Shown here: positions 3,668 to 50,525 of the stretch, piece by piece
Layout of the letters: every line of letters begins with the position of its first letter
Position numbering within the stretch: position 1 is the stretch's first letter
NCBI GenBank assembly: GCA_963920765.1
Contig: OY987248.1
Coordinates: 3,229,001 to 3,293,000, forward strand
Length of the DNA stretch: 64,000 nt
Direction of reading: 5' to 3'
Source: Ulota crispa
Taxonomy: Eukaryota > Streptophyta > Bryopsida > Orthotrichales > Orthotrichaceae
Position numbers and translations under genes: made by a program
Notes under the pieces: generated by a model
Told to the model about the DNA's origin: nothing
Databases searched by the model: none
What the model saw: only the letters and a program-made list of their open reading frames with translations

Positions 3668-4024
3668 TCTTCTCTCGATCAAATTTCGCTCTAAATTTTC
3701 CTCTCTTTCAATATTAATACAGAATGACTATCGTCGAGATTGAAGGCTTCGTTCTCAAGAGTAATAAATTGTGATATTTTAATGATCTCTTCCCTGGCCT
3801 CCTCTAGAGCACGGTTCCCAGATTGATTTCCGGTCCGTCAAAATTGCATAAATATAAGTAGAGAGTCGAGACTACTCGAGATCAGAGCGACAATATTCTA
3901 TAAAAATGTGTCTCTCCTGCATGCGGAGGGAGGCACATGCCAGACCTTCGATGTTCATAAAGACGTTCAATTAAGCTGCTGCCTTCCGAACCAGAACACC
4001 AAACTTCCTGGCAAAGATATAATT

Positions 4025-4177
4025 ATGGCTCTACCGACGCGGAATGAATTTAGTGCTGCATGCATATGTTGCGAAAGAGACGACAAAACTTGTGCGGAAA
4101 TAAACATATTTAAGAATTGTACAGTTTGCGGAGCAACGACAAAAATCAGCGTGGGTATGAGCAAACGGGAGAAGTGA
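4025..4177 (+). CDS. Candidate small Cys-rich ORF (weak)
   Basis: A 50-codon ORF from an ATG encodes a peptide with two Cys clusters (CICC and CTVC) plus a single Cys between them. The open frame runs back to 3908 without a stop but without an in-frame ATG there. A TATA-like ATAAATATA lies near 3847 and the first ATG after it (3906) is in another frame and reads only 22 codons. No signal peptide is evident for the 50-codon version. It could be a short secreted Cys-rich peptide with a missed intron, a long non-coding transcript, or chance. Confidence 0.15.
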   Translation: MALPTRNEFSAACICCERDDKTCAEINIFKNCTVCGATTKISVGMSKREK

Positions 4178-4642
4178 AGGCTCTAGGTCTTGCGATGGCA
4201 GGCCCCGACAAGCCTACAATAGAGTGGCAGGGCGGACTTGGACGACCGAGCTGATTCGCCTTTGTAAGTCCCTGCGTCTGATGGACGGCGACTGTTGTAT
4301 ACGACTTCACTCACCCCGTCCTTAGAGCATTCTGTTGAGATAAGTATTCTACTATTATGCTTTTCACTATAGTTACGTAGAGTTTACTTTAGTACAAGAA
4401 TCCCATAGATCAATAAGAGAAAAGTATTTTTACTTTGTATATGTGGAAACCTACTTGGAATATGAGAACTTCTAAACTTCTTTCTTCTCATATATCTTTT
4501 ATGTCCTTGTTGTGTTTTTTATTTTCAACACATCCACACCCTTGTATGCTAATCAGGCTCTCAATAGCATTGACGTGGTTTTTTTGCTTGGCGTGCTTCA
4601 CTGCAAATGTGTTACACCGTTTACAAGTTAAGGCCTACAACA

Positions 4643-4889
4643 CCATATTAGGTAATTTGGGCAAAAGGGTACATTTTGGGACTTTTAGGTTCTAGGTGAT
4701 CACCTAGAGCCAAGCTCAAGGTTTTTTTTTTTGGTACATGTGCCCTCACCTGAGAGGAGGAATTTGTGAGGGAAAATTCTTAGTGGCTCACATTAAATCT
4801 GATACCTTCAAATCTGATTTAAGGTAACTTTTTAGGTTTAAGGTGGAATACAAAATGGTACCTCCGTTTTTCCAGATTACCTAATATGG
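4643..4889. mobile_element. MITE family A, copy 2
   Basis: Left end CCATATTAGGTAATTTGGG, right end its near-perfect reverse complement. The interior aligns along its whole length with the 462-705 copy, including GTGATCACCTAGA, a ten-T tract and ATCTGATACCTTCAAATC. Non-coding. Confidence 0.82.
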
Positions 4890-6058
4890 CATTCTACTCA
4901 ATTGTAGCTCAAACATGAGAATATTAAGGGTTTTGTAAATTGTTAGTGTGCCCAAATCTACGGGTAATCATTTTTCCAAAACATTAAAATTTGTATATGC
5001 TAAGACATAATTCAAAATCAAAAATATGATTTACATTCTCAAAACTAATGTTATTAATTAAACTCAATTAGTAGTCGAAACTAAGAGTTTTTCATATATG
5101 CTTTTGTTACATATTCGTACTACATTGGATCATTATCCCAAATACTGTGCTTAAAAAACGGTATGACGCTTGGTTGCTAAAGCATTCTTGTCAAGCCTAG
5201 GGAGGAAAAATGAGGAGTAACTCAATTTCTCATAATTTACATGGAAATTGATTTTATATATATGTACGTATACATGTACATACATGCAGTTGGGTACTCT
5301 AATCATATAATCAGCCTATTTGAATCATTCAATTTTTTTGGGTGAAACGTGGAGTATAATTGGTATGTTTTTGTCAACAAAATTATCATTGCATTCTTAT
5401 CCAATTCAATCAAGCATATCAAATATCAGTTTCTAAAAAGCAAAACTTCATTTGCAGTAAATTTTTTAAGTGAAAATTCATGGTTTTACAAGGCATTTGA
5501 TTAAAAATGATTGGTGATGAATTTTTTAAAATTGATTAAGGAGATCTATAGAGAACATCCATATGCGTCTTCCCTTCAATAAGTATATCCAAAAAAGGTT
5601 TTACAATTCTTTCTATAGAGATTTTAATGTCAGAGGGACAATCTCCAAATTTTGTAAAAACTAATATTTCTTTATTATAATTAGTTTTTTTCTATTTGCC
5701 CTACACATGGTATTTAATTTTGTACATTTGAGCATGATGGTACAATTACTTTGCAAAAATTTACTCAACTTAAATAGAGACATCTATTGTACAAAATTGA
5801 GGCATTGTCCTTTTGACATTGAAATCTTTGTAGAAAGAATTGTGAAACTTTTTGGATATGCTTGTTGAAGAGAAGATGTGCATATGGATGTTCTCTACAT
5901 ATCTCCTTAATCAATTTTAAAAATTCTTCACCAATCATTTTTAATAAAATACCATGTAAAACCACAAATTTTCACTTTAAGAATTCATCACAAGTGAAGT
6001 TTTTCTTTTCTTGAAATTAATATTTGGTACTGGTAATTTACCCTATTATTATTAGGTC

Positions 6059-13060: not shown

Positions 13061-14783
13061 TACTATTGGGAAAAAACTTCTGCTCTATACAGTTTTGTAG
13101 CAATATTGCATCAATACTGGCTGCAATGACTTCACAGTAAAATATTGATGCAATATTGCAATAATATTGCAAGTAATTAAAATAAACACAATATTGTTAC
13201 TATATGTAAATAATATTATGTGCTATATGATAAAGCAGTATTGATATAGTAATGAAAGAGTCATACTTCAATATTGTATAATGCATTGGGAAAAAAGGAC
13301 ATCTTTCAATTTATTTATTTTTAGTTTATGAGAGAAAAAAAGACTCCATGTATGCATGGTAAGCCACAAGCTCCACAATTACACCACACAATCTACAACA
13401 ATGAGATTCCCCAAGATTCTCCAAGAGGTCACCCATCCGGGTACTCCAACTTGAAGGCATTTAACTTTAGAGTTCTCATGGTGTGGCCACATTGCTACAC
13501 CACATGATTTGAGACATGTACATTCAATTATTAAATTGAAATTTGCCTAGTTATTCTCATTCTTCTTCATTTCATTTGTAAAATCAGCTAATTTTGAAGG
13601 CCACTTTGGCATAGAAAAACAACTCTTTCAAAATACCTTGAATTAGAAAAAGTTGTTAAACTAAGTTAGATTTCATTTATAAAAAACAATTTCAAATTTT
13701 GATATTTCATTTAAGAGTTATGTACAAAATTATGAGAGGGTGTTTGTAAATGTTCAAGAAAATTTCCTTTTCAACCCCTCTTAGAACTTTGCATATAAAT
13801 TTTATTGGAGGCTCAAAATGTCAAACAAATTTTTGGAAATGAAAGTTAACTTACTTAAGTTCTTTTTTAAGATCAATTTTTCCTAAAAACAATTGTTTCA
13901 CTATTCCTCAATGGCTGCCAAAGTTTAGGAAGTTTAAAAAACACTAAATTGTGGAAGATTAAGTTAAAAAAAGAAATCCATTGCACAATACCCTCCAAGA
14001 TGTCTTGCAATCCCAATATGAGGTCTAATAAAAAATGTGATCATCAAATTTTCTTAAAACTATAATTAAGTTTAGCAAACTGATTGAACCATCATACTCA
14101 AATGTACAGAAGTAGTCATAATATAAGAGTTAATTAGTAAAATATAATTGTAATTTACAAACATATAGTAAATAACATTTGGGAAGGCAACACCTTCACA
14201 TTCACTCATTCTTCACCTCCCAAGGTGAAGAATGAGTCTTCTCCATCTTGGAGAATGGGCCCTCCATATTAAAGCAAGAGTACCAAAATCCTATTCTCTT
14301 GCAATACTTGCGTAGTATTGTTTTAACACAAAAAAATTATTGTAAATTGTACAGTTGCAATATACATTCAAAACAATCCTTAGTTAAGAATATTGTTGCA
14401 ATCAATGTGACAACAATACTGAATTCCTCAATATTATTTGCATATATTTTTAGTATTGCAACAATATTGTAATTGGATAGAAATTAAAAACATAGTAGTA
14501 TTTGTGCAATATTGTATCAATACAAGCTTTATCTTAATTAATTGGTTGTTTGTAATATTGATTTGAGCAAATTCTAGTATATACCAATGCTACAGTATTG
14601 CTCCAATGGGGCTCATTGCATCAACACTGCAAAATTATTAATCATTGCAATATTGCTAAAAGTGCCAATTTTACAATACTATAACAGCATAATTTCAATA
14701 TTGCATCAATACTGTTGAGGATAGAAAATCCGTCAATTCTGCATCAATACTGTTGACATAGGAGGGTGTTTTCTCAATAAATA
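13061..14783. repeat. CAATATTG-rich, possibly TIR-bounded region
   Basis: Two blocks (about 13090-13290 and 14290-14760) are dense in CAATATTG and GCATCAATACTG words, largely palindromic. The outer borders ATTGGGAAAAAAC and, reversed, ATTGAGAAAACACC could be degraded terminal inverted repeats of a ~1.7-kb element. A 5S-rRNA-like relic lies inside. No coding region seen. Confidence 0.35.
13410..13485 (-). pseudogene. 5S rRNA-like relic (Cassandra-type or SINE3-type)
   Basis: Read on the minus strand this stretch contains GAGAACTCTAAAGTTAAATG, then GGAGTACCCGGATGGGTGAC and CTCTTGG. That follows the 3' two-thirds of plant 5S rRNA (AGAACTCCGCAGTTAAGCG .. GGATGGGTGACC) in order and near-correct spacing, but with many changes. 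It is not an intact 5S gene. Such sequences occur in Cassandra TRIM long terminal repeats and 5S-derived SINEs; no second repeat was found nearby. Confidence 0.6.
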
Positions 14784-14882
14784 GCTAGCAAGTTATAGGA
14801 TCCTACTAGGAACAGAAAACAAATAATGAGTTTGCACGTCCGAATGTATTATTTGGATATTGTGAGAATAAGTTGTGAATTT

Positions 14883-15835
14883 TTAACCCCTAAAGGTTTT
14901 TGACTATGTTTTCATCAAAACTGCCCCAAAATTGCCATTTGTAGTGCAAGTATCAAATTTTAGATAAAAGTTATTTTTGGACACATCTAACCGTAAGATC
15001 TTGTAGTACACTAGTATCCAAAAATGTGGAAAAAAATTCAGAAATTTTTGCCATGTGGATTGTTACGCAAATGAGTTTGAATTGACAAAGGGTTATTTTT
15101 TGTCCCTGCAAAAATCTGGGCAGCTGCACTTCACAAGGTCATATTTGTATGAAAGAAGTTTCAAAATAGTTGTAATTTTTTGTATTCATTCTTTGAGGCA
15201 AGTCAGGTACACACTTGAAAATTTTCAAATCATTTGGAAATGTATAATACATTGGAAAAAAATAGTAAGTAAAAAGAAGTAGAGAATGATACAAAACACT
15301 AAATTGTTAAGAATTTAATTATGAAAAACAAAAATTCCAATCTCAATGGCCAAAATGTTGTAATAAACAATCTACTTCCTTTGGCTTTATTTATTTTCTA
15401 AAATATTAAAAATTGAGTAAAGCATAGGACTTAAATTTTTTTTTTAGAGTAGGGAATCCATAACTACTTGCAAACAGAATCTCCTCATAACTTTCATCTC
15501 ATTGATGAAGACTGAATGATTCAAAGCTTCCCAAGGATGTGTATATATCTAAAGAACCAATTTCAAAAAAAAAAATTCAAAAATTGTAATTTTTAAAGAA
15601 GTTTTTTGAGTTGCCTAGGCTGCCTAGGCTGCCCCCTGAACAAAGAAAACTACATATCATGCAATAACTTTTGAACCATGAAATCAAAAGTTATGAAATC
15701 TGTTGGGCCTTAAAGCTACTCTTTGGACACATTATGTGTGAAAATTTTAAAGAAAAAAATGAAAAATCCATTTGTAATGAGATTCCCAAAATTGCTATGT
15801 TGCCAAAAAACAGTGTTTGGGCCTTTAGGGGTTAA
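14883..15835. mobile_element. TTAA-bounded element, subfamily A, copy 1 (953 bp)
   Basis: TTAA at both ends; the terminal inverted repeats begin CCCCTAAAGG on each side. The interior aligns with the elements at 36137 and 38677, for example ACATCTAACCGTAAGATCTTG about 100 bp from the left end. Short ORFs only. Confidence 0.72.
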
Positions 15836-16071
15836 AGAGCAAAGTGCCATTGCACCCATAACCACTATTAAGATTTCATGTTCACATGTTGTACATCCTT
15901 GTCATTACATCTATTCACTTCCATAGATTTTTCAAGATTTGAAAAGTGACGATTATGGAGACAGTGGTGCTTACGGGAGTACATACCTTACTATGTTTAG
16001 AAATTTTCAATAAAAGGAATAAATACAATACTGCATAATTTATTACATGATTGTATATTTTTTAGGGAGCA

Positions 16072-16461
16072 TCTAAGCGGACACCCCCAAGTTGCTATGT
16101 AGACATCCCCATAGCCCAATTTATTAAATTTGAGATTATTTGTACTTTGAAATATGAAAGAAAATTAAAACAATACTTCAATGTATTGTACATTTGTGTT
16201 TACAAGCATTGCAAACATACAACAAAGATGCCTCATCTGTGACAAGGTTAAGAGTTAAACCAATAAATGAAGGAAACAACTAGTTTCTCTTGATCATGTC
16301 ACAAATAAGACATATTTGTTGTATTTTTGCAACACTTGTAGACGAAAATGTATGCTAAATTATTGCTTTGATTTTATTTCATATTTCAGCATAATAATAA
16401 TCTCAAATTTAATAGATTTGACTATGGGGTGTCCGCGTAGCAATTGGGGGGTGTCCACCTA
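16072..16461. mobile_element. Foldback element, family H
   Basis: Long inverted arms: left TAAGCGGACACCCCCAAG then TTGCTATGTAGACATCCC, right (reversed) TAGGTGGACACCCCCCAA then TTGCTACGCGGACACCCC; the pairing continues through CTCAAATTTAATAGATTTG-type sequence. About 390 bp, non-coding. Its right end abuts a family B MITE. Confidence 0.7.
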
Positions 16462-16792
16462 AGGTAGGAGGCTCATATTCCACTCAGGTTCTAAAATTGT
16501 CCACCTTCTCAAATGTATTTCATGTGTACATGTTGTTTTTCATAATTTTTCAAAATGTATAAGGAGTGTACATTTGAGGAGGTGGGCAATTTTAGAGACC
16601 TATGGCCTTTCCACTTCAATATTTATACCTAATTCCACAAAGCTCCAAAAAATATGAAAAAACTTGAGTTAGATGTCAATTCTTCTTGTCTTTCAAGGAA
16701 AATTTACTGAAAAATAGTTCAATGAAGAAGTTTCACCTCCCCAAAATTCAGTTTCAGCCCTTAGATATACGGTTTATGAGCACACTACCTTA
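16460..16792. mobile_element. TA-flanked MITE family B, copy 1
   Basis: TA then AGGTAGGAGGCTCATA at the left; the right end is a shorter partial inverted repeat closing with ACCT then TA. The interior carries TTTCATATTTTTTGGA-type and GTGTACATTTGAGGAGGTG blocks shared with the copies at 29647 and 41596. TA duplication suggests a Tc1/mariner-type mobiliser. Confidence 0.75.
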
Positions 16793-17133
16793 GTTGCTCT
16801 TAAAAAGAATCCCTGTTGACAAACACCCCGGCCACGTATTAATCAGTTGCGTCAGAATATCCACGTGTCGATATCTCCTGTGAGTCCAATCATGCAGGCG
16901 CACGCCACCTGGCAATTATCCAACACCGCAAATGCAGCTGGAATCCAATCCAGCCCTAACCCTAGTCCCGATTCCCGAGCCACAAAGAAGCTCTCGATTC
17001 TTCCAGATCATCGTGCTTTCCTCGTGAATTCTCTACCCTCTCCACTCCACCATTGCTCGAACCACAACGTCACCCGATTTTCATGCAGCGAAGAGTTTCA
17101 TATACTCGCACTAATTCAGTACAGAGGTATGTT

Positions 17134-17800
17134 TTCACTTTTCCAACCATTCGTCAATTGAAGCACGCTCCTCGTTTTCGGTGCTGTACTCTGGAGCTAT
17201 TTCAGTAGAGTCAGGTATGTAGAGATGGAGGCAATATTTGTTCAGAACTTTTGATTGTTTCGTGTCGATCCATTTGCATTACACCTCTGGTACACGTCTT
17301 CGTCTCATTCGTGGACTTTTGAGAGCGCTAGAGCAATAAATTTGTATTTTATACTCGGCTCTCTCGAGTGATACAGTTTGTTATTGCACATTCTTTGTTC
17401 CATCCTCAGAATCCGTCGTATTGTGTAAACGTGCATGAGTCTGTTTCTACTCAAGGCAGTAATCACCAGAGAGGGTCGAGTGTGTTGCATTGGAGGTTGG
17501 TAGGGTTTGGAGGTTTTTTGCTTTTTGCATGCCAGGGTTCGAACGTATTCAGTTTTTGTGGAGCAATGCAAGTGTAAGAAAGCTGCGAATTGCTTCATCC
17601 GGTGGTAGAAACAGCCTTCTGTGGTTTTCTTTGCGTTTTCCTTGCAGCCATATTGCTGGAGCTAGCTTGCAATAGTAGTAAAACTGAGCTTGGCCTCGAT
17701 CAGATTGCTTCAATGAATTGCTTAGTGTAGTAAAAGATTTTACACTTTAATGAGCGTTGGAGAAATGTCTCAAACGCCATTGTGTGTGCCATTGTTTGTT
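17134..17800 (+). repeat. ~670-bp block shared with PURM intron 1, copy A
   Basis: Aligns over its full length, with only small indels, with the reverse complement of 26812-27480. Shared runs include ATACTCGGCTCTCTCGAGTG and AATCCGTCGTATTGTGTAAA. It begins 7 bp after a possible donor (acagag/gtatgt at 17127) and ends about 100 bp before a possible acceptor (tttgcag at 17902), so it probably lies in a leader intron of the Hikeshi gene, in the sense orientation. No clear terminal inverted repeats or target duplication. A 60-codon open frame is shared with copy B (from about 17490) but has no recognisable domain. Confidence 0.85.
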
Positions 17801-18037
17801 ATTCTCACTTGATTTTTGCTAAGATTTTACAGTAGTGGTTAGTGATTTTCCCTTCCCTTTTGATGCAGTGCACTCTTAAGTTTCACTCATTTGCCTTTGC
17901 AGGAGCAACTGCCACTCAAACCCTTCCTGCTGCGCTGGTGCCGGTCATCGCCATAGTGGAGAAGTGGCAGGGTGTGAATGTTTGAAAGTGTGGTTTAGAG
18001 GATAACAATACTTTTAATCTTGAAAGGGATTCTCAGG

Positions 18038-19011
18038 ATGTTTGGCGTTTTGTTTCCGAATCGAAGTTTTCCGTTGGGCGTTGCCACCTTCAACCAAGTT
18101 GATGATCACCGATGGATCCTGGACATGAATTATTTTGTTGGTAAGTGTTGTTCACTTTTAGAAATTTGTCTCCTCATTGGTCTTGTCAACCACATTTGAG
18201 AATTTGAGCGTTTTTCTGAGTTCTACGGTGTATGACACTTATAACTAACAACTCCCGATTCAAGTGGTTAGCCTAAGGCTCTGTCAAAAAAAAGGTTATC
18301 AAAACATCGAGTCCACCAAGATGAAGCTTAGGGTTGGTTGGTGGTGGAATTACTTTTGAGCTAATGGGAATCTGTGTTGTGCTTTAGTATATCTTGTTTG
18401 GCCAATAGTTGTTGGTTATAAGTGTCATGCACTATAGCAGCAGCAGAAGCATGGAACTTTTCTTGTAACATTTAGTCGCTCATAATCAAAATTTTGGCTT
18501 TTTTGGGAGGAGGCAATTAAAAGAGAAATATGCTTTGTCTGCAGGTGAAGCTTATGATCAAGTGAAGGAAATGTGCATCTTCTTGCTAAATGAAATGGCA
18601 TTACCAGCTGGTAAAGCCTTGGCTGTGTATGTGCAAACACCAGGGTCACAATTTGAATACCGAGGTGCTGTGCACAGCGCATGTCCTTCTGCTGTGTTCC
18701 CCCTTCTGTGGCCCGGGGCAACCACTGGCCAAATGCTACTCACTGGGCCTGGTGCACCCACTGCCTCTGCCCAGATTGGCATTTCAGTTGAAGACCTCGC
18801 CACTCTTCCTGCTCTCAACGTAGGCCAACAGAAGCGTGTGGAGGAGCTTGCACTGAAAGTTGGTGAAAATTTGTTCAACTTCATGCAATCGTTCTGTACA
18901 ATACAAGGTGACAAACTCATCATTCCTATGGACATCTTGAATCAGTGGTTCAAGAAGTTTCAGGAAAAAGCTAGAAGGGACCCTGATTACCTTAACCGCT
19001 TTACCTTGTAA
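18038..19011 (+). CDS. Hikeshi / OPI10-like protein
   Basis: Hikeshi family (DUF775) proteins carry Hsp70 into the nucleus during heat stress in animals; plant members are linked to thermotolerance. Two exons, 18038-18140 and 18545-19011, joined as GTT-G/GT with donor gtaagt and acceptor ctgcag, give 189 aa, close to the ~197 aa of the animal protein. The N-terminal MFGVLFP.. followed by WILDMNYFVG.. and YVQTPGSQFEYRGAVHSACP and WPGATTG are family features; the C-terminus ends ..WFKKFQEKARRDPDYLNRF. There is no transit or signal peptide. The leader probably starts near 17000-17120 and is interrupted by an intron holding the block shared with PURM. Confidence 0.92.
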
Positions 19012-19920
19012 CATAAACAGAGTATGTTTCGTCTTTTTCTTACAATACATGTTGTCCCTTTCATGAGTATTCTCCTGTATCAAATTCGGATACGGTAGTC
19101 CTCGCAACTTGTGCATAGCAATCCTTGTAATATTTTACTTTTGTTTTGAAGTTTTCTTATATTGCTGTTTCCTTACATAGAACTCCATATTGTTGCCGAG
19201 CTTGTTAATACAGTGCCCAGGTGGACCTTTGGAACCTATTTTCTGTATTGGCTCTCAAAAGCTTGCTTAATGAGGTAATGTAGTTTGTTCAAATTCAATG
19301 AACTTCTGGACAACTGGCCTGTTTTTTAGGTAGTTCAAGGAAGACAAGAACTTTATTTCAGGTCCAAGTCTGTTTGTGGGTTGAGAAGGATTGTTTGAAA
19401 TTACCAAGGAATAACATGTTTGTCATTTCCATGAAATGAATTCCTATTGTACATTTCAACATGATGCACCAAGATTTAATAATTAGAACAAATTACGATC
19501 TTTGATATGTCACAATTAGGTCAGTGAACCAGCTTCTTATGATGCCAATGTTTGTTTCCACACCCTTTTGATGTTATTGGAGAGATTTGAATGTATTGAG
19601 GATTTTCTTTATCAAGTTGACTATTCAATTTGGTAGAACTTCATGTTGAGTATTCTTGGGCCCTAGTTAAGTTTAGGGCTTTGTAATGCTTAGGTCTTAA
19701 AAGATCTTGTGAATGAATTCCTACAATTGATTGAGAATTTTCAAAGCTTGTTTGAAACAATGCATCTTGGATTAAGGTACGAAGAACATTGAAATGATAT
19801 ACAAATTGTGTTATTTTAGGATTATCATGCTAACTATCTAAAGTACTTAACAACTATTGAGAAACTTGGTTATGTGGTGTATTGCATTCATTCTATGTAT
19901 TACAAAGGATTATGTTCCAT
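19012..19920. other. Hikeshi 3' flank and AT-rich intergenic DNA
   Basis: The first ~200 bp probably hold the Hikeshi 3' untranslated region. Beyond that I see AT-rich unique-looking DNA with no gene, TIR element or RNA gene. Confidence 0.5.
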
Positions 19921-19924
19921 ATTT

Positions 19925-20700
19925 TTCAAGAATGAATTCCAAACTTTCAAAGGTTGTTTTTGAAGCCTCTTAAGGTGACTTCAAAATGGCTTTGGCATGC
20001 TTATTTTTTTGTTAATCATCATGAACCAATCAATTAACTTGAATATGAACAAATGAACAAAAAATGCTAAGATATAGGTGATTTTGTGAGATTTTGCACA
20101 ATATTTATTTAAGCACTATTCTACAAGGATATATCTCACAAATAAAAATTAAACAAATAACTACATCTTTACAATCTGAAAACTACAAATGGTCAAAATG
20201 GTTGATTATTAAACCTAAAGTTGTTTGTGTAACTTATACATAAGAAGTATTTTATAAGGATAAGTAACTCCATGTATCAATTGAAAGATGAAATTATACT
20301 CTACATTCTTATTGATTTTTCAACAATGAATTCCGAACCATCAGAGGTTGTTTTTGTAGCCTCTCAAGGTGACTTCAAAATGGCTTTGGCATGCTTATTT
20401 TTTTGTTAATCATCATGAACCAATCAATTAACTTGAATATGAACAAATGAACAAAAAATGCTAAGATATAGGTGATTTTGTGAGATTTTGCACAATATTT
20501 ATTTAAGCACTATTCTACAAGGATATATCTCACAAATAAAAATTAAACAAATAACTACATCTTTACAATCTGAAAACTACAAATGGTCAAAATGGTTGAT
20601 TATTAAACCTAAAGTTGTTTGTGTAACTTATATATAAGAAGTATCTTATAAGGATAAGTAACTACATGTATTAGTTGAAAGAAAGAATAATATTGTACAA
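19925..20700. repeat. Near-identical tandem duplication (~390-bp unit)
   Basis: Copy 1 (about 19925-20312) and copy 2 (about 20318-20700) share runs of over 200 bp with very few differences, for example AGGTGACTTCAAAATGGCTT and GATATAGGTGATTTTGTGAG. The end of copy 2 is displaced to 21565 by a foldback insertion, so the duplication is older than that insertion but still recent. Confidence 0.9.
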
Positions 20701-21564
20701 TTGGGTCCATTAATCTTACAAATTGCCATTTTAAGGCATTCAGATTTTTTAATGAAACTTGGAGTATAATTGATATATTCTTGTTAGAAAAATTATGATT
20801 GCATCCTTACTTAACCCCAATCTAGCATACCAAATATCAATTTTAGAAAAACAAAAATTCAGTTGTGGTGAAATTTTAAAGCAAAATTCCGTGGTTTTAC
20901 ATGGCATTTTATTAAAAACAATTGGTGATGAGTTTTTGAGATTTGATTTCATGGGTATGAAGGAAACATCCATATGCACATCTTCCATGCTAAACAATAC
21001 CCCCTTAAGTAACAAAAATTTGATCAATAAAAGATTCAATGAAACTTATGATAGGCCCAAATCTCAAAATTTTATTTTATTTTGTGAAATTCAAATTTTG
21101 TAGTTTGACTCAAATATTGTGACTACATTTGTATCTTTTAACATGATATCTTGTTTACTTGATGAAAAGCTAGATAAAAAATAAAGATATGTATTTTACA
21201 AGATTTGAGCCTATCACAAGTTTCATTGAATCTTTTATTGATCAAATTTTTGTTACTTAAGGGGGTATTTTTTAGCATGAAAGATGTGCTTATGGATGTT
21301 TCCTTCATACTCATGAAATCAAATCTCAAAAATTCATCACCAATTGTTTTTAATAAAATACCATGTAAAACCATGAAATTTTGCTTTAAAATTTCACCAC
21401 AAATGAATTTTTGCTTTTCTGAAATTGATATTTGATATGCTTGATTGGGATTAAGTAAGGATGCGTTTGTAATTTTTCTGACAAGAATATACCAGTTATA
21501 CTCCAAGTTTCATTAAAAAGTCTGAATGCCTCAAAATGGCAATTTGTATGATTAATGGACCCAA
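20701..21564. mobile_element. Long-arm foldback element, family D, intact copy
   Basis: Two ~390-bp inverted arms (20701-21090 and 21180-21564) surround a ~90-bp spacer. Ends read TTGGGTCCATTAATC and the reverse. The copy 2 / copy 1 comparison of the surrounding tandem repeat gives the empty site: host sequence is duplicated as TGTAC around the insertion. Arms contain a shared ~100-codon open frame without known domains, read from both arms because they are inverted copies. Confidence 0.88.
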
Positions 21565-21664
21565 ATGTACTCTACATTCTTATTGATTATTGCCTTAGCC
21601 TTAGAATGAGTAGTCTCATTGTTTTTAATTCCAAATTTTGTGATCATATTATAAAATATACTAT

Positions 21665-22054
21665 GGGAATTAATATGTGCATATCAGGGTTGGGCGGTAA
21701 ATTATAGATTCCTACCATCAAAAAGTTGAATTTGAGAATTTTAAATTTAGACTTGGACTCAAAGTCCATGATTTAGTCTAGAACCATGAAAAAGGTTGTA
21801 ATTGAACAACATACAATGATAAAACTAATCTTTTTTTTCAAATAAAAGTAAAAGTAATACTTTTCTCCCTAGCTAAGCTTTTTCATTGGGTGTTGTTCAA
21901 TTGCAACCTTTTATATGGTTCTAAACAAAAAGTCAAGGTCTTTGAATCTAAATTCAAAATTCTCAAATTCAACTTTTTCATGGTAGAAATCTAAAATTTA
22001 CCCTGGGGAGGGGGGTGCATATATCAATCCCCTGATGTGCGCATATCAATTCCC
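21665..22054. mobile_element. Foldback element, family C, copy 1
   Basis: Ends GGGAATTAATATGTGC and, reversed, GGGAATTGATATGCGC. The arms pair through CTACCATCAAAAAGTTGAAT / CTACCATGAAAAAGTTGAAT and TTCTCCCTAGCTAAGC. Same family as the tandem pair at 47016-47806. Confidence 0.8.
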
Positions 22055-22756
22055 TACATTATTCCAATGGGTCTAAATGTTTATCATCACAACTATTGAT
22101 GAATGTTGTATGTATTTATTGGAACCTGCTCAAAAATAGGCCTAGTAAGTCTTCATACAACCTACTTAGAACCATTGAAAAAACACATGTTTCCAATGGG
22201 CCACTTATTGGGAGACAAAGGTAGTAATATATATTATGAAAATAGTTATGGATAGGCTATTATTTATTGATTAATTGAATTTTTATGCAATCAAACAGCT
22301 ATGAGCTGTTTGAATTGGTAGGATGTAAAGGGTGGCCAATCTGTAACCTTGGTCTACAAGTGACTCCTTTCTAGTGGTACAATGTGCACACTACAATAAG
22401 CTTTTTGTTTAACATATGAGCGTGTGTTGAACTTGGAAATTACTTTAGAAGTTTAAAACAAGATATAATACCTTCTAAAGCATGTTTGATTAGTTGAAAA
22501 TGTGTGGGGTATAATTTTTAATGGCATATTTGACACTTCCTTCAAAACTTTATTATATATTTAATTCAACTCCTATACATATAGAAAAAATGGCTTTAGA
22601 CTATAAAGACACTTGGAGATCAAGGTCCCATCTGCATCATGGTTAAGCATGATGTTAGCAATGGTATTAAGAATATCATTGGAAATGATGTAAGCAAGAG
22701 TGCAAGAAAAAAACTTAAACACACACATTGCTTAAGTTTGTACTAGAATCACTTCA

Positions 22757-23671
22757 TTAATCCTTTAAGGACCACGTGACCATATTTTGGTTGCTGGGAG
22801 TGGTTTTTGGCTTGTAGGTTGAAATCACTCAATAATTTGGAATTTGGTCTTGAAGTATGCTTGTGATCACAAGAATTTTGCATCCATCTAAAAAAATAAC
22901 AATTCAATTGGGTATGTGAGTTGATAAATAATGGTGTTTATACAACATGGCTTCAAAATACGTATCCAATTTTTGTCAAAGATGGATCAAAGCAACAACA
23001 CAATACATCAAGTATGCAAGAAGAATGTCAAATTTCAATTGCACAATTTTAAAAAAGTTCAAATTGCTTAAGAAATATGCGTGTATTGTTTTCATATACG
23101 GTAGTAGTATAATTGTAGTATTTGAAGATGTACAGAAATATTGTTGTCATTTTGGCTTTAAAATTTGTCATCTTACATTTAAGGCCAATTTTTGATTGTT
23201 TTCACCAATTGGATTTTCTAGTATAATTATCAAATTTCTTGTAGAACCGTTTTAGGGTAGCAAAGAAAGTGGGTTTTTTTACCCCTTTTGTCCACTTAAC
23301 TACACCTTGTGATTGCTATTTTTGTCTATTTTGTGTGAAACTAGTCTTGTTGGAAAGGTGGGAAACCCTGCTTTCTAGAAATGTAAGGCTCTTTTCAATC
23401 AAAGCCTGCATGAAGCGGCAACATTCAAAACCACACAAGCATGAAACACAAGAGATTTTCCGCATATGGCTCGCTCAATCATTATAATGTTTCACCTCCA
23501 ACGGTAGATCTAGCTAAAATTTTGGAGTTTTAAAGTGAACAAGGTATACTTCCCATTTGTACGGTTGGATTTTTGAAAATGAGTCCATATTTGAGTCAAT
23601 TCCAAATCTAAGCTTAGAGCCCCTGTTTTCAGTGGATTCTGTGAAAATGGGTGTGGTCATTAAAGGGTTAA
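22757..23671. mobile_element. TTAA-bounded element, subfamily B (915 bp)
   Basis: TTAA on each side. Left TCCTTTAAGGACCACG and reversed right CCCTTTAATGACCACA pair as inverted repeats. The interior has no gene; an 82-codon ORF near 22947 shows no recognisable domain. Confidence 0.68.
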
Positions 23672-26309
23672 CACCACTAACAATCACATATCTGAATTTC
23701 AATTTTATAAATTAGCCCAAATCATATAATATCACGCTTTCCATTTATTTATTTTATAGAGAAGACAATGCTAGATTGCACCACTCAAATAGAGCTTGGC
23801 TATAAATGAGCCAAAATTTTGAGGATTGTATTCCTAGATGAATTACAATTTTTAAATAATAATGTGATGAAATTGCCAACTTAGATAAAAACAAAAAAGA
23901 GGATACAATTATCTCTATTCCGTATACACGTGAATGTACAAATTTGTGGCTTTACCAAAAGTGCTTAGTATTGTCATTCTAGCACTCACTTAGTATACTG
24001 CATAAACGCATTTGTAAGCCCAAGGTGGAAAAGCCCAAATATATGTATGCATTGTAAGTATAAAAGTCAAAATTGGCCCCATATTTTGAAGCCAGTCAAT
24101 TTTATCTCCTTCCACTCTGCTACACTAAACTGAGGTCAATGAATCCAAACTTGAATGCAAACTTCGCAAATTCAATCTTCCAATGGTAAATTTCTAAAAT
24201 TTAATGTGTCTTGCCTAGTGAAAAGTCTAAACTTTTTTACTCAAAGCGCACATCTCACCAGCATATAAGCTATGGGTATGTAATTACTTCCCTGTTGTTT
24301 ATATGAAACTAATGTTTTAGGAGTAAGTTCTTTTAGGGAACTCCTCCCTCACCGTGCATGCTTGAGCATCTGCTACCACATTAATATTTGAAAAGTATTG
24401 CTTGACAAATTGCTTAACCCCTGTTGTTGAGGTTGCATTAGTTTATTCTTCCACATGGCACGGGGATGCCTGATTTCAACTAAGCTTACATATCAATTTT
24501 TCAACAGCACTATGTAGTGATGTGCATACTGGTAGTTAGAAAATGTGTACTTGGGAAGCGAATTTCTGGTCCATTTGCACTTGTTCACTATGATTACTCT
24601 GAATACTAACAAAATTTGTAACATGAACAATATTAATTTTACCTTGTTAGCGGTATGAATGAATCCTTCTCTCTTAGGAGGAATTTTTACCATGGGTAGA
24701 TAACAAAACAGGGCACAAGTGAAGTGTTGTTAAATGTTGTTGATAAGTGTATATTGTAAAGGTAAATATCTGAAAATAAATAGTTATTTTGGGGAAAATC
24801 CATCACATGACCGAAGTACTTTTCTACAAAGATGGAATTGATAATAATTGAATTATAAACAACATGATTTTAAACTATCAAATTTATTCACATGGGGAGC
24901 ACAAGATAACATGATTGAATTGCATATAGCTTTAAAATTAAAATTGGATTTTTTTGATGGTGTGAGCACAATTGTAAGATAAATTGGCCAGGCATTGATA
25001 AAAACTCAATTATGGAGTATTTTGATTTTTTGGTTAAATAGTTAGATCTTTACGATATTTAGAATGTTTTAAGTAGATAAACGTTGACAACTAAATATTT
25101 AGTGTCCCATCCATTGTTTTATACAAATCACCAGTTAGGGTCGACTTCCATGCTGCATTAGAATTAGAGAACTGCAAAAATAACAAAGGTGTTACAAAAC
25201 CATGTATAAAAATAGTAGGAGCTACAAAACCATATATGGAAGTGTAATGACAAGATTTATTTTGCAAAAAGCAGAGTAATTTAGCTGATTCCAATGCAAC
25301 ATAGAAGTTTGCCTCCAATCACATATGTACTTCAGTCAGAAAATAGGAATATCTGAGCTAGTCTGCTTGCCTGAGCACAAGCTAAACTTACAAACAAGTT
25401 CAAAAATAAATCCTTCATTAGAGTTCTTCACATTGTATACCGTAAAAAGAACAAATTCAAAATGCAAACGCAGTATTCTGTAGAAATAAGAGAGATAACT
25501 CAAACTCTCGAACTTATTAAAAAAAAACTAAGTGTACAGTGTAGTTGACAAAACTCAGAGGTCCATTGTCATGACTCTGATCAACTTCTCTCGTATAAAG
25601 TCACTAATTGACTCGTACTCCTCTGTTTGGGAAAGAGTGGTAACCAAACAACATATTAAAATCGATAGCAAATCACTAGACTTGCGTGGATGCTGATACC
25701 TAAAGCCTAAACACTGAAAACCTATATTCGCCATCCTCGCTACTTTGATGCGACGCAATGCAAAGCAAAGCAATGAGAATTACTACTTTGTCACCACGGT
25801 TGCCGAGGTATTCTGCAAAATTGAGCAGCAAGAGAAATCACTTCACATAAAACAATGAAGGAGACTGCTTCCAAGAGCTCCATCCACAGTAGCCTCCAAA
25901 ACCCTAAACCCCTATTCCCTGCAAGCTCACGCAATTGTTGCTCATGGTGTTCGGCATTGTAAGTTTCTGATTGTGTCCTGGAATGCATTGCAACAAGTTA
26001 ATTGGTCAGCAACGTAGTCTATCGCCCTAAACCTGAAACCCTAAACCCAAAGCCAAAAAAATAGACAGTGCACCTTTGGAAGCAAACAGTCAATGCTAAT
26101 AACTGACGAGTGTTCCAAACTGTAGGATATGATTTCAAACTTCTATAACTACATATGGAAGCGACCAGTTGTAGCCCTTTGGCCATAGAGTTTCTTACAA
26201 GCTTAAGCAAACAGGATAAAGAACCACCCTGAAATCTACGTAACCCTGATTGAAACAAAAGCCCAACCTTGATTGACTTGGGTGGGGGTAGTAGCAGTAA
26301 TACCATGAT
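23672..26309. other. Intergenic DNA and PURM 3' flank
   Basis: AT-rich from 23672 to about 25300. A fragment near 24060-24230 resembles one arm of foldback family C. From about 25550 to 26306 composition rises and several telo-box-like CCCTAAAC motifs appear. On the minus strand here an open stretch from about 25991 starts at an ATG, and a 24-codon stretch after a possible acceptor (cccaaacag, near 25626) ends at 25558; together they could be a small unrecognised gene, or part of the PURM 3' untranslated region. I cannot support a definite gene. Confidence 0.35.
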
Positions 26310-28368
26310 TTAATGGAAGGTCACGCCTTCCCCCTTCACGATGTCACCCAAGCGATACACTTGGCCATACGAAGAGTCTTGAGAGACGATGGCCTCGGCC
26401 ACGTCGTGAGTGACGATGAGAACCATGCCGATGCCCATATTGAAAGTCCGCCGCATTTCGGCATCCTCCACACCGCCTGACTCTTGCAACCACTTGAAGA
26501 TGGACAGCACTTCCCAGGAGCCTACATCCACGTTCACCCCCAGACCCTTGGGGAACACCCGGGGGATGTTGTCGGTAAATCCGCCACCGGTGATGTGAGC
26601 CATGCCCTTAATCTGAAACTTGGCCAAGAGCTCCAGTACCTGTCCGCACAAAACCACAAAAAAAAAACTCCTCTAGCTCAGACATCAAACATTTCAAAAA
26701 ACAACAGCAGAAAGGCAAAAAGGATTCCCTGACTGAATGAAGTACAAAAACATACAAGATGCTCTTTACAAGCAGCAGCAGCAGCATCAGTAGAAACAGA
26801 GACAAAAAAGGCACACAAAAAGTGTTCGAGACATTTCTCCAACGCTCATTGAAGTGTAAAAGCTTTTACTGCACTCAGCGAATCATTATAGCAATCTGAT
26901 CTAGGCCAAGCTCAGTTTTACTGCTGTTGCAAGCTACGGCTATTACCTAGCTCCAGCAATATGAATACAAGAAAAACGCAAAGAAAACCACTGAAAGCTG
27001 TCTCTGCCACCGGATGAAGCAATTCGCAGCTTTCTTACACTTGCATTGCTCCACAAAAACTGATTACATTCGAAACCCGGCATGCGAAAAGCAAAAAACC
27101 TCCAAACCCTACCAACCTCCAATGCAACACACTCGACCCGCTCTGGTGATACTGCCTTGAGTAGAAACAGACTCATGCACGTTTACACAATACGACGGAT
27201 TCTGAGGATGAACAAACAATGTGCAACAACAAACTGTATCACTCGAGAGAGCCGAGTATAAAATACAAATTTATTGCCCTACTATAACAAGAGTCCGCGA
27301 ATGAGACGAAGACATGTACCAGAGGTGTAATGCAAATAATTCGACACGAACAATCAAGAATTTCTTAACTAAGTTAACATTGCCTCGATCTCTGCATACA
27401 TGACTCGACTGAAAAAGCTCCAGAGTACAGCACCGAAAACGAGGAGCGTGCTTCAATTGAAGTATGGTTGTAAAAGTGAAGGGTAAAGCAAGCAGAGATG
27501 CATGCGAGCATGGGGGGAGTTGGATGAGCACCTGCTTGACATAGATCGTGGTGGGTGTGAGCAGAGCCTCGCCGATGGAGACGCCGGGGGAGCCGGGCAA
27601 GGGGTCGTGCAGAGAAGCGCCAGACGAGGCGAGCACTTTGCGAACGAGGGAGAAGCCGTTGGAGTGCAGGCCGCTCGAGGGGAGGCCGAGGAGCACATCG
27701 CCGGCGACGATGGTGCGGCCGTCGACGAGGGCGTCCTTCTTCACGCTCCCCACGGCGAACCCGCTCAGGTCGTACTCGCCAGGCGCGTAGAAGCCGGGCA
27801 TCTCCGCGGTCTCGCCGCCCAGGAGCGCGCACTCCGACTGCTTGCAGCCGTCGACGATGCCCTTGATCACCTGCTCCGCCTGGTCGACGTCCAAGTGGCT
27901 GGTGGCGAAGTAGTCCAGGAAGAACATGGGCTTGGCGCCGCTCGTGATGATGTCGTTCACGCTCATCGCCACCAAGTCGATTCCGATCGTGTCGTGCTTG
28001 TCCATGTCGAACGCCAGCTTCAGCTTGGTTCCCACGCCGTCCGTCCCCGCTACCAAATAGGAGTCGCCGAACGGGAACAGCCCCCCGAATCCTCCGATCC
28101 CCGGCGTCATCTTCGCAATTCGCCGCACCAGCTCCGCGCCCGCGTCGATGTCCACCCCCGCGTCCTTGTACGTGAGCCCGTTCGCGCTCGCCGCAGCAGC
28201 TGCCATCGTCACCTTGGTCGCGCTAACCCGCATCGCTCCCTTCTGTTGCTGCTTTCCTCCCAAAAATCGCAGACCACTAGGTCCCGACGGGACTCCCTTC
28301 GCCACCGCCGCAGCTTGGGTCGCTGCAGGAGTGGCGACGCACGATATCGTCCCTCCCACGGCTGCCAT
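26310..28368 (-). CDS. PURM: Phosphoribosylformylglycinamidine cyclo-ligase (AIR synthetase), plastid
   Basis: Catalyses step 5 of purine synthesis: ATP-dependent ring closure of FGAM to AIR. Two exons, 27532-28368 and 26310-26639, joined in phase at [12 protein letters not shown], give 388 aa. About the first 65 residues are Ala/Ser/Lys-rich, fitting a chloroplast transit peptide (plant PURM also reaches mitochondria). The mature part shows [71 protein letters not shown], then [17 protein letters not shown], and ends ..[18 protein letters not shown] at 28368 is the first in frame. Exon 1 is markedly GC-rich against its surroundings, which opens a long antisense frame with no meaning. Intron 1 (26640-27531) contains the block shared with the Hikeshi leader. 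Confidence 0.95.
26812..27480 (-). repeat. ~670-bp block shared with the Hikeshi leader, copy B
   Basis: Inverted relative to copy A at 17134-17800, and therefore sense with respect to PURM. It starts about 51 bp into intron 1 and ends about 170 bp before its acceptor. Long runs are identical, including GGTTGGTAGGGTTTGGAGGT and GTAAGAAAGCTGCGAATTGC. Confidence 0.88.
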
Positions 28369-28442
28369 CACTACAACAAAATTCACAACACAAAAACCTC
28401 GCACACAAGAAACTTCGGCAAAAGCAAGCAAGCAAGGCAGCG

Positions 28443-28453
28443 AAACCCTAAAA
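28443..28453 (-). promoter_or_regulatory. Telo-box-like motif at the PURM leader
   Basis: AACCCTAAAAA lies about 75 bp upstream of the PURM ATG, in the probable leader or core promoter. Role inferred from the motif only. Confidence 0.3.
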
Positions 28454-28700
28454 AAGCCGGGAATTGGCGAAACCCAAGAGGGGCAGAGAAAGTGGTGAAT
28501 TGGGGGAGAAGAAAATGGGGTGTCGGTTCAGTATGAGAAATGCATAGCAGATTTGCAGGGGAAGAGTGTGGAGATGCGACCGAGGGTAGCGGCGAATCAT
28601 CCACGCGAGATGCGAATGAATTCGTATCTATCTCTCTCTCGTGCGCGTGCCGACAAGCCTACGTGGACAGTTGTTCAGCCTCGACCGGATGAGAGTGGGT

Positions 28701-29649
28701 TTAACCCCTAAATGCCCAAGGGTGTTTTTGTCGTTTTGAGAAGGTAGTTTTGAAGTTTTTGAATTGTCTTTATAAGATCATCATTAAACATCAAAAAGAA
28801 ATTGTAATCAAAAAGAAATTGTAATTGTTGAATCTTAAATTTTAAGGTTTTTGAATGGCACTACTCAAAAAGAATCCTAAATGGTCGTGCGGATTTTTAG
28901 ATATTTGTGATTGAATGATGATGAGTATGGAATTTTTTGTTTTTTTTTTAACTGCCCAAAATTTCTAATGCAAATTGGCAACTCTTAAATACAAAATTGG
29001 GAGACAACCACTTAGGATGCTTTAGTTAGGATGCTTTAGTGTTTATTGTTGTTACTTCAAAACCAATGGCTCCTCTTCCAAATCCATGACCACAATTTCT
29101 CAAATGAACTTGCAATGCAATTGTCAAAACACAACCGTCTCATACAAAGAAATTTTCAACTTCAATTATTGACCAAAAATCATTATGAATGAAAGAAAAT
29201 TCTACAGTGAAAGGATCCTAATTTCTATAACAAAGACATTCCAAGTGAAATTAGTCCAAAAGCACTTTTAGATTTTGTTAAATGTCAAAATTTTAGTAAA
29301 AAGGCCTTTATTGCCCGAGGGAGTGCCCAAGGGAAATCTTCACCTTTTGCTCAACTTGATGCTCGTCTTTTCAATGTGGCAACTTCTCATAGGCTTTGTG
29401 ACACTATCCACAACACTATTCATGACACTATTCACAATTGAAAATGTATGCTTGTAGTTAACCTTCCACCAAAAAAAAATGGAATAAGATATGAAGGAAG
29501 TTGAATTTGAACGGTGAAGCTAACTTCAATGCGCAACTTTTCCACAAAAAAACCTCAAAACAATAAAATCCGTAACTTCAATAGGATTTCAAAGTTTCTT
29601 GAAATTTTTTGATCATCAGAATTTGGTACCTTGGGCATTTAGGGGTTAA
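28701..29649. mobile_element. TTAA-bounded element, subfamily A, copy 2 (949 bp, best ends)
   Basis: TTAA on both sides, then a perfect 17-bp inverted repeat CCCCTAAATGCCCAAGG at each end. No long ORF. It lies about 330 bp upstream of the PURM start codon, probably at the edge of its promoter. Its right-hand TTAA overlaps the start of a family B MITE. Confidence 0.82.
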
Positions 29650-29976
29650 GTTAGTCTGCTCATAAACCGTCCAGGCATTAAAACTGCCCACCTTCTCAGT
29701 TGTACCCTTGCTGTACATGTTTTTAGTCATTGTTTTCAAAAATGTACAAATTGTGTACATTTGAGAAGGTGGGCAGTTTTAGAGACCTATGGCCTTTCCA
29801 CTTCAAAATTTCATAACTAATTCCACAAAATTCCAAAAAATATGAAATAACTTGGGTTAGATGTCAATTCTTCTTGTTTTTCAGGGAAAATTTATTGAAA
29901 ACTAGTTCAATAAGTTTCACCTCCCAAAAATCCAACTTCAACCCTTAGATGGACGGTTTATGAGCACACTGCCTTA
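29647..29976. mobile_element. TA-flanked MITE family B, copy 2
   Basis: Ends TA-AGTTAGTCTGCTCATAAACCG and, reversed, TA-AGGCAGTGTGCTCATAAACCG. The interior matches 16460-16792 over long runs such as GAGACCTATGGCCTTTCCAC. Shares its left TA with the right TTAA of the preceding element. Confidence 0.8.
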
Positions 29977-30025
29977 TTTTTTGTTGTTTTGTTGGTAGGC
30001 TAACTGGCACCAGTACATGGTTGCT

Positions 30026-30090
30026 AAAGTGTGAGCGTGGAGCAGGGAGCAATGAGCGTTGAGCGATGAGCAGTGAGCGTTGAGCGGTGG
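30026..30090. repeat. Short GAGCGTTGAGC tandem array
   Basis: Imperfect units of GAGCGTTGAGCGATGAGCAG type repeat about three to four times, in a GC-richer island just before a very AT-rich tract. Confidence 0.7.
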
Positions 30091-30099
30091 GCAAACTTT

Positions 30100-32017
30100 T
30101 CATGGAAATTGAAAAATTGAAACTGATATTCTAGTGATTTTTATATGTTTGTAAATATGCAAAAATGTCACTACATGAATAGAAATTTTGGATGGTATTT
30201 GAAATTCATCCATTAAGACAAACAAATGAAAAACAATACCAAGTGGATGAATGTAGATGAAAATAGGACAACAATTATGATGAAAATACATTTAGGAAGA
30301 TACATTATAAAAAAATCAAGGGAGACAATTAAAAACTAGAAAATACAAAATTTCATTGATACCCACTTTTCGAAAGAAAGAAAAATCAAGTATAAGATTT
30401 CTTGCATTACTAACAATTTCAAAAAAAGAATATCAAGAATAGATTTACATTGAACCTTTCATATATTATTCTTATATTTTTGTTGTACTCTCAATTCAAA
30501 AGAATCCAAAATCCTTAATTTTTAATTTGCAATTTTGAACACTTTCAAATTTTGAGGATTAAAATCTACAATAATAGCAGTGAAATAAATATTATAATCC
30601 CAATAAGAAGAAATTTGAATTTATATCTTGAACTTTACAATGAAAGTACATTTTTTAATTACCGCTTTGATACTTTTGAATATTGATATAGTATTTCCTT
30701 TAATATATTGTAAACATTTTCAAACAAATTTTGAACAAATATTTAATCAAAAAACAACTTTTGATAAAAACCTCTAAATTGAATAAACTTGTAAAATCAT
30801 TTGAAACAAAAAATTCACTACAATTCCCTTCATTTAGTACTTTACCATATTGAAAATGCTAAAATACTTTCTAATTTTTTATTAAATAAGAAGAATGTAA
30901 AATAAAATTGAATTGTTTTTCATTGTGAATGATTATAACATTAAAAAAATGTTAGTAAAAACAAAAATATATTGCTAGTTTATAAAATCTTTGGAGACAC
31001 ATTGAGGCATTTGAAAACCCTAAAAAAATATTTGGCATTTTTGTCCGTAAGTTTTTTAATTTAAAAGGGATTTAAAAAAAATTGTTTGATTAAACAAAAT
31101 TAGGTTCAATCAAATTTTTTTTTAATTTTTTTTAATTTCAAATTTTGATCAATTATTAAATAATTACTTATCAGTTTATTAGAGTTTGTTAAATAATACA
31201 AAATATATTTTGACATTTGATATGAAATTTTTGATGAATTTTTATCGGCTCTTAAACTTTTTTTTTCATTATTTAAATATTTTAATTTGAATACCTTTAT
31301 ATCTAATTTGTTTTTTTGATATCAATTTTGTTTAAATCAATTTTATATTTAAATAAATCTTTTTTATATAATTTCCATAGATAAAATTTAGCATAATTAA
31401 TTAAAATAACCATCCTTTTTTTATTAAAATGTAGGATTTTGCAACAACTGAATCCGTTTCATCCCCAATTTTTAAATTTTGAATTATGTTTTTTTTACTA
31501 AATAGAATTCATGACTTTTTTTTATAATTTGCTGAATTGAAAAAAATAGTATTAGAATTTTCCAATTGAATTATTGAATTTAAATTATTTTATTCTAAAG
31601 GATTTTCTATTTCAAAAATTATTTTTTCACAAAAAGTAAATTTTTTTTTTGTTTTTCAATAAAAAGCTTTGATGTTTTTTTATTTTGATTATTTCACAAA
31701 TTAAAATAACTTTATTAAATTTATAATAAATATATTTAGTTTTTTTTTTACTATTATTACAATTTTTTTTAAATTTTGTTTCAGTTTAATAAAATTTGAT
31801 CAAATATATTTTTTGTTCTTTTTCTGAAATTTATAATATTTATAATAAAACATTTTATTAACTAAAAATAAATTTTTAGAAAAATAATTTTAAATTAACT
31901 AATCTTTATTTGAAAATTAAGTATAAAATTGTGAGAAAATATTATAAATTTTTCATTTTTTTTAAACCTTTTTTCTATTACAACTTTTGTTTTTTCTCTT
32001 TCTGTTTTAGAAACTTC
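30100..32017. other. ~1.9-kb extremely AT-rich tract
   Basis: Long runs of A and T with frequent TTTTTT, AAATTT and TAAATA words and very few G or C. No coding potential. It could be a matrix-attachment-type region or the decayed interior of a retroelement, since a direct repeat lies at 30776 and again at 32018. Confidence 0.6.
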
Positions 32018-35284: not shown

Positions 35285-35962
35285 GTTAGTTATAGAACCT
35301 TTAGTTGGTTATGGTTATAGGACCTCTAGTTGGTCGTAATTATAGGACCTCTCCACGGATAATGGTATTTAGTGTTGGCAACACTAATTACGAACCTCAA
35401 CACTAAATGTCAACAACTCCCTTAATGTTACCAACACTAAATGTCAGCCTAACACTATTTGTCAACTATTGCAATTTTTGGGAGTAAATCTTTTTTACAA
35501 GTTTATATTTAGTGTTAGAAATTGGTTCATTTTTATTACAACAAAAAAACATAAATTAAATTCATGAGTTAATATCTAGACAACTATTTGGCATAAACTA
35601 CAAACTTGGGCCGAATTGAGTTTGTCCATTAGATTAAAATCATTGTCACCATTCAGTGATGAAAAATGATAGAAATAATCCAAAATAATCCAAAATAATC
35701 CAAAAATCCAAAAATCCAAAAATTTGAAAAAAAAGGTTATATGTTTCTAAAAAAATGTATTAATATTTTTCTTCAAAAAAAGGTTAAATTTTGTATTTGG
35801 TGTTATAATCTAATGTTCCCAAAATTCCTAATGAAGTTCCCAAAGTTCCCATATGACGTTCCCAAAGTTTCCAATGAAGTTCTCAAAGTTCCTATATGAT
35901 GTTCCCAAAGTTCCCATACTACGTTCCCAAAGTTCCCAATGAAGTTCCCAAAGTTCCCATAG
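35285..35962. repeat. Minisatellite-rich stretch
   Basis: Three kinds of short tandem repeat follow each other: a 25-bp unit GGTTATAGGACCTCTAGTTG.. (35285-35350), AACACTAAATGTCAAC units (about 35370-35470), and a ~22-bp GTTCCCAAAGTTCCCAATGA unit repeated about seven times (35815-35962). Non-coding; open frames across them are repeat artefacts. Confidence 0.7.
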
Positions 35963-45713: not shown

Positions 45714-45946
45714 TAAGGTGGGTATACACAACACCACTCATCACCCCAATGCTGTTCAAATGTAGGCTAGTAGTTGATTTTTGAACTCAAATCTAGCCCC
45801 TCCATAGATAGTTTATCTTTTGAGATTCTTGGAATCTCAAAAGATAAGCTATCTATGGAGGGGCTAGATTTGAGTTCAAAAATCAACTACTAGCCTACAT
45901 TTGAACAGCATTGGGGTGATGAGTGGTGTTGTGTATACCTACCTTA
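45714..45946. mobile_element. Near-perfect 113-bp-stem hairpin element
   Basis: TA then AGGTGGGTATACACAACACC at the left, and at the right its reverse complement followed by TA with only a base or two different; pairing continues to a loop of about 8 bp at the centre (GATTCTTGGAATC). Only about four mismatches in the stem. TA borders suggest a mariner-type foldback MITE; a transcript would fold into a long dsRNA hairpin. Confidence 0.85.
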
Positions 45947-50393: not shown

Positions 50394-50525
50394 CACTACA
50401 AGGAAACCATGGTTGAATCTACAAAAATGTTAACAAAAATCGTGACCTAATCTACAATATACTGTAGATTAGGTCACAATTTTTGTTAACTTTTTTGTAG
50501 ATTTGACCATGGTTTCCTTGTAGTT
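50394..50525. mobile_element. Miniature CACTA-like hairpin
   Basis: The left end CACTACAAGGAAACCATGG is close to the plant CACTA (En/Spm) terminus CACTACAAGAAAA, and the right end is its inverted copy (CCATGGTTTCCTTGTAG). The arms pair almost to the centre (TAATCTACA-ATATAC-TGTAGATTA), so this is an internally deleted palindrome of about 130 bp. Confidence 0.75.

Follow-up and report, generated by a model that had tools for sequence, protein, structure and literature searches.

The window analysed here is a stretch of 64,000 nucleotides of the Ulota crispa genome (C7:3229001-3293000; the genome comprises 274.8 Mb in 157 contigs), in which two neighbouring genes of opposite orientation carry one and the same sequence of about 670 bp. 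The plus-strand gene is Hikeshi-like, with domain matches to PF05603 and PF21057, and a further coding exon is likely to lie upstream of its open reading frame. The minus-strand gene is PURM-like, with AIRS and AIRS_C domains on both sides of an intron. The two copies of the shared sequence are designated block A and block B, and the features of both genes are as follows.

17127-17902, plus strand: predicted Hikeshi leader intron (AG/GTATGT ... TTTGCAG/GA, sequence prediction)
17134-17799, plus strand: block A, in the leader of the Hikeshi-like gene, presumed source (genome search and local alignment)
18535-19011, plus strand: Hikeshi-like open reading frame, with N and C domains and most of the protein
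26310-26639, minus strand: last coding exon of PURM (open frame and domain match)
26640-27531, minus strand: PURM intron between two coding exons (GT and AG at its ends; the same intron in the C3 paralogue)
26802-27480, minus strand: block B, the copy in the PURM intron (genome search and local alignment)
27532-28431, minus strand: first coding exon of PURM (open frame, with the true start codon inside, and domain match)

Other features were recorded in the same window. In AT-rich DNA between Hikeshi and PURM an inverted repeat occupies 20695-21570 (370-nt arms, 93% complementary, 136 nt apart), with related pieces at 5407-6011. A direct repeat of 300 nt, 98% identical and with 394 nt from start to start, is found at 19921-20614, and a weak Rfam match to MIR841 at 21760-21943 (36.4 bits, the gathering score being 200; E 0.00016) overlaps a repeat family which recurs near 47.5 kb. 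Farther along there are alternating 21- and 22-nt units based on GTTCCCAAAGTTCCCAT (35788-35960), a tandem array of 18-nt units, the period being a multiple of 3 (40134 to about 40900), a near-perfect hairpin with two 115-nt arms that are 98% complementary and 3 nt apart (45714-45946), and a hairpin with 65-nt arms, 92% complementary and without spacer (50395-50524).

By local alignment block A matches block B from end to end, with identity in 606 of 685 columns (88%); substitutions occupy 54 of the 660 ungapped columns (91.8% identity), and 13 of the 25 gapped columns form one gap. Block B was recovered by genome search at an E value of 1.9e-247, far beyond chance. The preliminary description of this DNA, which had reported the same sequence of about 670 bp in two neighbouring genes and in sense orientation in both, was right on both counts. 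It had also called for a genome-wide search for copies, and whole-genome searches with block A (E 0.001), block B (E 10), the central 265 bp (E 10) and a 30-mer of the identical core with up to three mismatches returned two matches each, with none elsewhere in random orientation, although such searches are heuristic and old, heavily decayed copies could be missed by them. A 21-mer of the identical core gave 0 matches in viral contigs.

Block B starts 51 nt past the PURM donor, just as previously stated, and stops 162 nt ahead of the acceptor, in place of the 170 nt that had been given together with a block end at 26812. In the Hikeshi leader an intron with GT at 17127 and AG to 17902 is plausible, and if this prediction is right, block A begins 7 nt into the intron and stops 103 nt before its end. 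A Hikeshi paralogue on C1 has 59% protein identity and is too distant to reveal the earlier state of the leader.

A second PURM copy, found by protein search with the last PURM exon, lies at C3:20.188 Mb. On the two sides of the insert its DNA is 84.6% (1001 columns) and 76.4% (543 columns) identical to that of the C7 gene. The C3 copy looks broken; stretches that form single exons in C7 align with it in different frames, and a stop falls within one of the alignments. Comparison of its surroundings (six 10-kb pieces and L010, with alignment rows of fewer than 60 columns dropped) gave no collinear gene set, the other matches resembling dispersed repeats, and therefore it is treated as a gene-sized duplicate, though a larger old duplication might also be its origin.

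The C3 gene has the same intron as the C7 gene, without the block. The DNA match between them ends at window position 27490 and restarts at 26781, almost exactly at the block edges, and GCATCTCTGTTTCTA runs uninterrupted in the C3 intron at the place where the C7 intron breaks off after GCATCTCTG and continues with TCTCTG-TTTCTA. Just past this stretch, between its matching flanks, the C3 intron holds another sequence than the block, with 84 genome matches (1920 candidates, 40 scored). Because this stretch has inverted ends (CTATACCGAATATTGC and, reversed, CTACACTGAACATTTC), we read it as a miniature inverted-repeat element, which by its ends would extend over about L010 4427-4635; the joined C3/C7 intron alignment took it as 4421-4634, an earlier estimate. 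About 12 nt separate the element from the site of the interruption in C7. Taken as an empty site, the C3 intron sets the bounds of the insert in C7 and of its junctions as follows.

26797-26802, minus strand: right direct repeat TCTCTG, 6 bp (empty-site comparison)
26803-27492, minus strand: 690-bp insert, bounds set by the empty site in C3 PURM
27481-27492, minus strand: junction filler of 12 nt, CTTGCTTTACCC, at the 5' end of the insert and without match to the flank of block A
27493-27498, minus strand: left direct repeat TCTCTG, 6 bp (empty-site comparison)
L010 about 3382-5135 (C3:20187381-20189134): second PURM copy, with an apparently broken frame and a putative inverted-repeat element in its intron

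With the boundaries fixed in this way, the identity of the six nucleotides on either side of the insert has a chance probability of 3.9e-4 as calculated from composition and of 8.6e-4 by random position pairs. At its 3' end the insert resembles the Hikeshi leader to within 1 nt of the boundary, whereas at its 5' end the first 12 nt do not belong to the similarity. A source of these 12 nt was sought in 14001-31000, where nothing longer than a 9-mer was found besides the filler itself. The insert has no inverted ends (the best match is 5/12), no 12-mers common to head and tail and no A/T tail on its printed ends, and its longest stop-free stretch is 79 codons; an antisense stop-free stretch of 118 codons in block A is unmatched in length in the insert. 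The hallmarks of a transposon had previously been described as invisible, which holds for terminal repeats and an A/T tail and fails for the target duplication, since TCTCTG becomes visible at the PURM copy once the empty site fixes the ends of the insert.

This target duplication of 6 bp, together with the nearly coinciding 3' ends of both copies, is what one would expect of a non-autonomous transposable element, now in two copies, which was inserted separately in the Hikeshi leader and in the PURM intron, and copy A also has a 6-bp direct repeat, TCACTT, at 17135-17140 and 17805-17810. The latter lies near but off the ends of block A, and since a repeat of at least 6 bp has a probability of 0.28 in window pairs of this kind, TCACTT says nothing on copy A being an insertion. 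The first 12 nt of the insert are missing from copy A, just two copies were obtained in the heuristic genome searches, and neither the ends of the insert nor its coding potential, as given above, resemble those of an element, so that an origin of this kind is considered unlikely.

The relative age of the block can be estimated from the same comparison. Blocks A and B diverge at 54 of 660 positions (JC 0.087) as opposed to 38 of 192 (JC 0.23) in the PURM intron flanks shared by C7 and C3, and because the block is less diverged than these flanks, its copying is apparently later than the PURM duplication; constraint or later conversion between the copies would make the block older than the divergence ratio suggests. 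The simplest reading of the alignments is an insertion into the PURM intron from the Hikeshi leader, or else from a third copy that was not seen, because loss from C3 or a donor in PURM would need the homology to end on the boundary by coincidence. Thereby we infer that the direction was from Hikeshi to PURM.

The reverse history, in which PURM had the block before the duplication, the Hikeshi leader received its copy afterwards and a deletion between the TCTCTG copies removed the block from C3, has about the same low probability as the transposable element. An insertion and a precise loss have the same appearance when two sequences are compared, a point made for transposon excision in PMC4423477, and a deletion can be promoted by 6-bp repeats. 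Against it, two events are required instead of one, and the ends of the Hikeshi homology must meet both deletion boundaries (at 1 and 12 nt) by chance.

Our preferred explanation, which is held to be rather probable, is a templated ("filler") insertion, by which the copy in the PURM intron would have arisen when a staggered break was repaired on the template of the Hikeshi leader. The PURM gene would first have been duplicated to C3, and then the C7 gene would have suffered a staggered double-strand break within its intron. In the course of repair about 678 nt would have been copied from the neighbouring Hikeshi leader (probably from its leader intron), some 9 kb away, one junction would have received 12 nt of filler, and the filling in of the staggered ends would have produced the 6-bp duplication. 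Being placed inside an existing intron, the insert would be spliced out together with it, and the copies would have drifted since. What was found includes an empty site in C3, a match for the donor in the genome and scars at the junctions, namely TCTCTG twice and 12 unmatched nucleotides, and the combination of the duplication, the extra bases at one junction only and a donor at a distance of 9 kb fits staggered-break repair with copied filler. We infer that the template was DNA and not RNA, that a break set off the event and that the drift afterwards was nearly neutral. Miniature inverted-repeat elements make breaks on excision, and given the position of the C3 element so close to the interrupted point, it may be speculated that an ancestral element at this site triggered the break. 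A single insertion has an even chance of ending up in sense relative to both genes, and among the options raised in the preliminary description it is the simple duplication that happened to land in sense which gains support from the empty site, the PURM intron being the recipient.

Several of these features have been described in the literature. Filler formation via synthesis-dependent strand annealing is described in plants (PMC4423477, PMC3445842); in rice the fillers left after transposon excision are 1-123 bp long with a mean of 13 (PMC4423477), in wheat gene fragments serve as filler DNA (PMC3445842), and a paper on patch insertion in rice is cited by title in the reference list of PMC6097286. 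Staggered breaks give rise to short direct repeats according to PMC3443670, where as a caution repeats of at least 5 bp are also stated to flank 25% of gained and 26% of conserved introns in Drosophila, so that such repeats are common around introns in general, though in the present case it is the empty site that sets the boundary of the insert.

The sense orientation of both copies is also compatible with an RNA intermediate, in which a fragment of the Hikeshi leader-intron RNA would have been turned into DNA by reverse transcription and then have entered the PURM intron, duplicating the target. Between the 5' end of the predicted source intron and the start of the homology there are 7 nt, the target duplication is short and the extra bases are present solely at the 5' junction, as this scheme would have it. 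It is nevertheless improbable, and slightly more so than the transposable element: an A-rich tail is missing, the homology in its 3' third stops short of the 3' end of the source intron, a donor 9 kb away speaks for DNA, and the source intron is itself a prediction. If the scheme were true, intron sequence would spread at the RNA level without reverse splicing, and introns could be enlarged with the regulatory sequence of a neighbour.

One observation runs counter to templated insertion followed by plain drift, which is the mild clustering of the differences between blocks A and B in three of four measures. In 5,000 shuffles the 86 difference-free windows of 40 columns (18.6 expected) were reached in 0.28%, the window variance of 4.80 (2.82 expected) in 2.0% and the longest identical run of 76 (52.5 expected) in 5.6%, while the largest number of differences per 40-column window was ordinary (8 against 7.8; 56%). 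These values could speak for a functional intron element, either an expression enhancer or an intron-hosted RNA, which is kept by selection in both genes; however, clustering is also expected from later conversion between the copies. At gathering scores Rfam gave 0 matches in the entire window. When E values up to 5 were admitted for 16800-28000, there were 6 weak matches, none of them on the sense strand of either block; one of these, to ssnA at 17603-17657, lies antisense in block A. The single-strand fold z values of the two copies are -0.73 and -1.93, attained by 4 and by 1 of 20 shuffles, respectively, and the two-sequence consensus fold has a two-sided change in 3 of 181 pairs, so these models give no clear sign of a convincing RNA structure in the block. 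Of the two motifs known from plant intron-mediated enhancement (PMC5216049), TTNGATYTG is absent from both blocks even at one mismatch (mean 1.5 in shuffles of block A), and CGATT is absent from both as well. Accordingly, the earlier suggestions of an intron-hosted non-coding RNA and of a transcription enhancer copied between genes found no backing in Rfam and folding or in the motif content, respectively, and selection for a function is regarded as doubtful, on a level with the RNA intermediate.

In summary, the locus most likely represents an ordinary templated insertion with an unusually clear anatomy rather than a mobile intron. By this reading the striking coincidence of two sense copies resolves into an insertion that can be dated and for which a target, an empty site, scars at the junctions and a likely source can be named, and it would provide a clean single case of intron growth via nearby DNA copied in repair, without transposons or introners. 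The case would gain greater weight if intron-to-intron patches proved to be frequent or sense-biased.

Fillers longer than 1-123 bp are known. In comparison with filler or patch insertion in plants by synthesis-dependent strand annealing, the PURM insert shows the same copied sequence, short direct repeat, extra bases at one junction and lack of transposon ends, but it is longer than the fillers reported in PMC4423477. It also resembles insertions into genes that have a short direct repeat on either side, such as a staggered break leaves behind, with the difference that here an intron was enlarged and none was gained, since the C3 paralogue shares it. The plant sequences of intron-mediated enhancement, as characterised in PMC5216049, are similar in position, one block lying near the start of a predicted leader intron and the other early in a coding intron, and differ in the motifs, which both blocks lack. 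Finally, intron transposition and introners likewise place one sequence in the sense orientation in introns (one of them predicted here) of two genes; unlike them, the PURM copy lacks the donor and acceptor of its presumed source, belongs to a sequence found in just two copies by the heuristic genome searches and lies within a pre-existing intron shared with the paralogue, which argues against the mobile intron or introner-like element initially considered.
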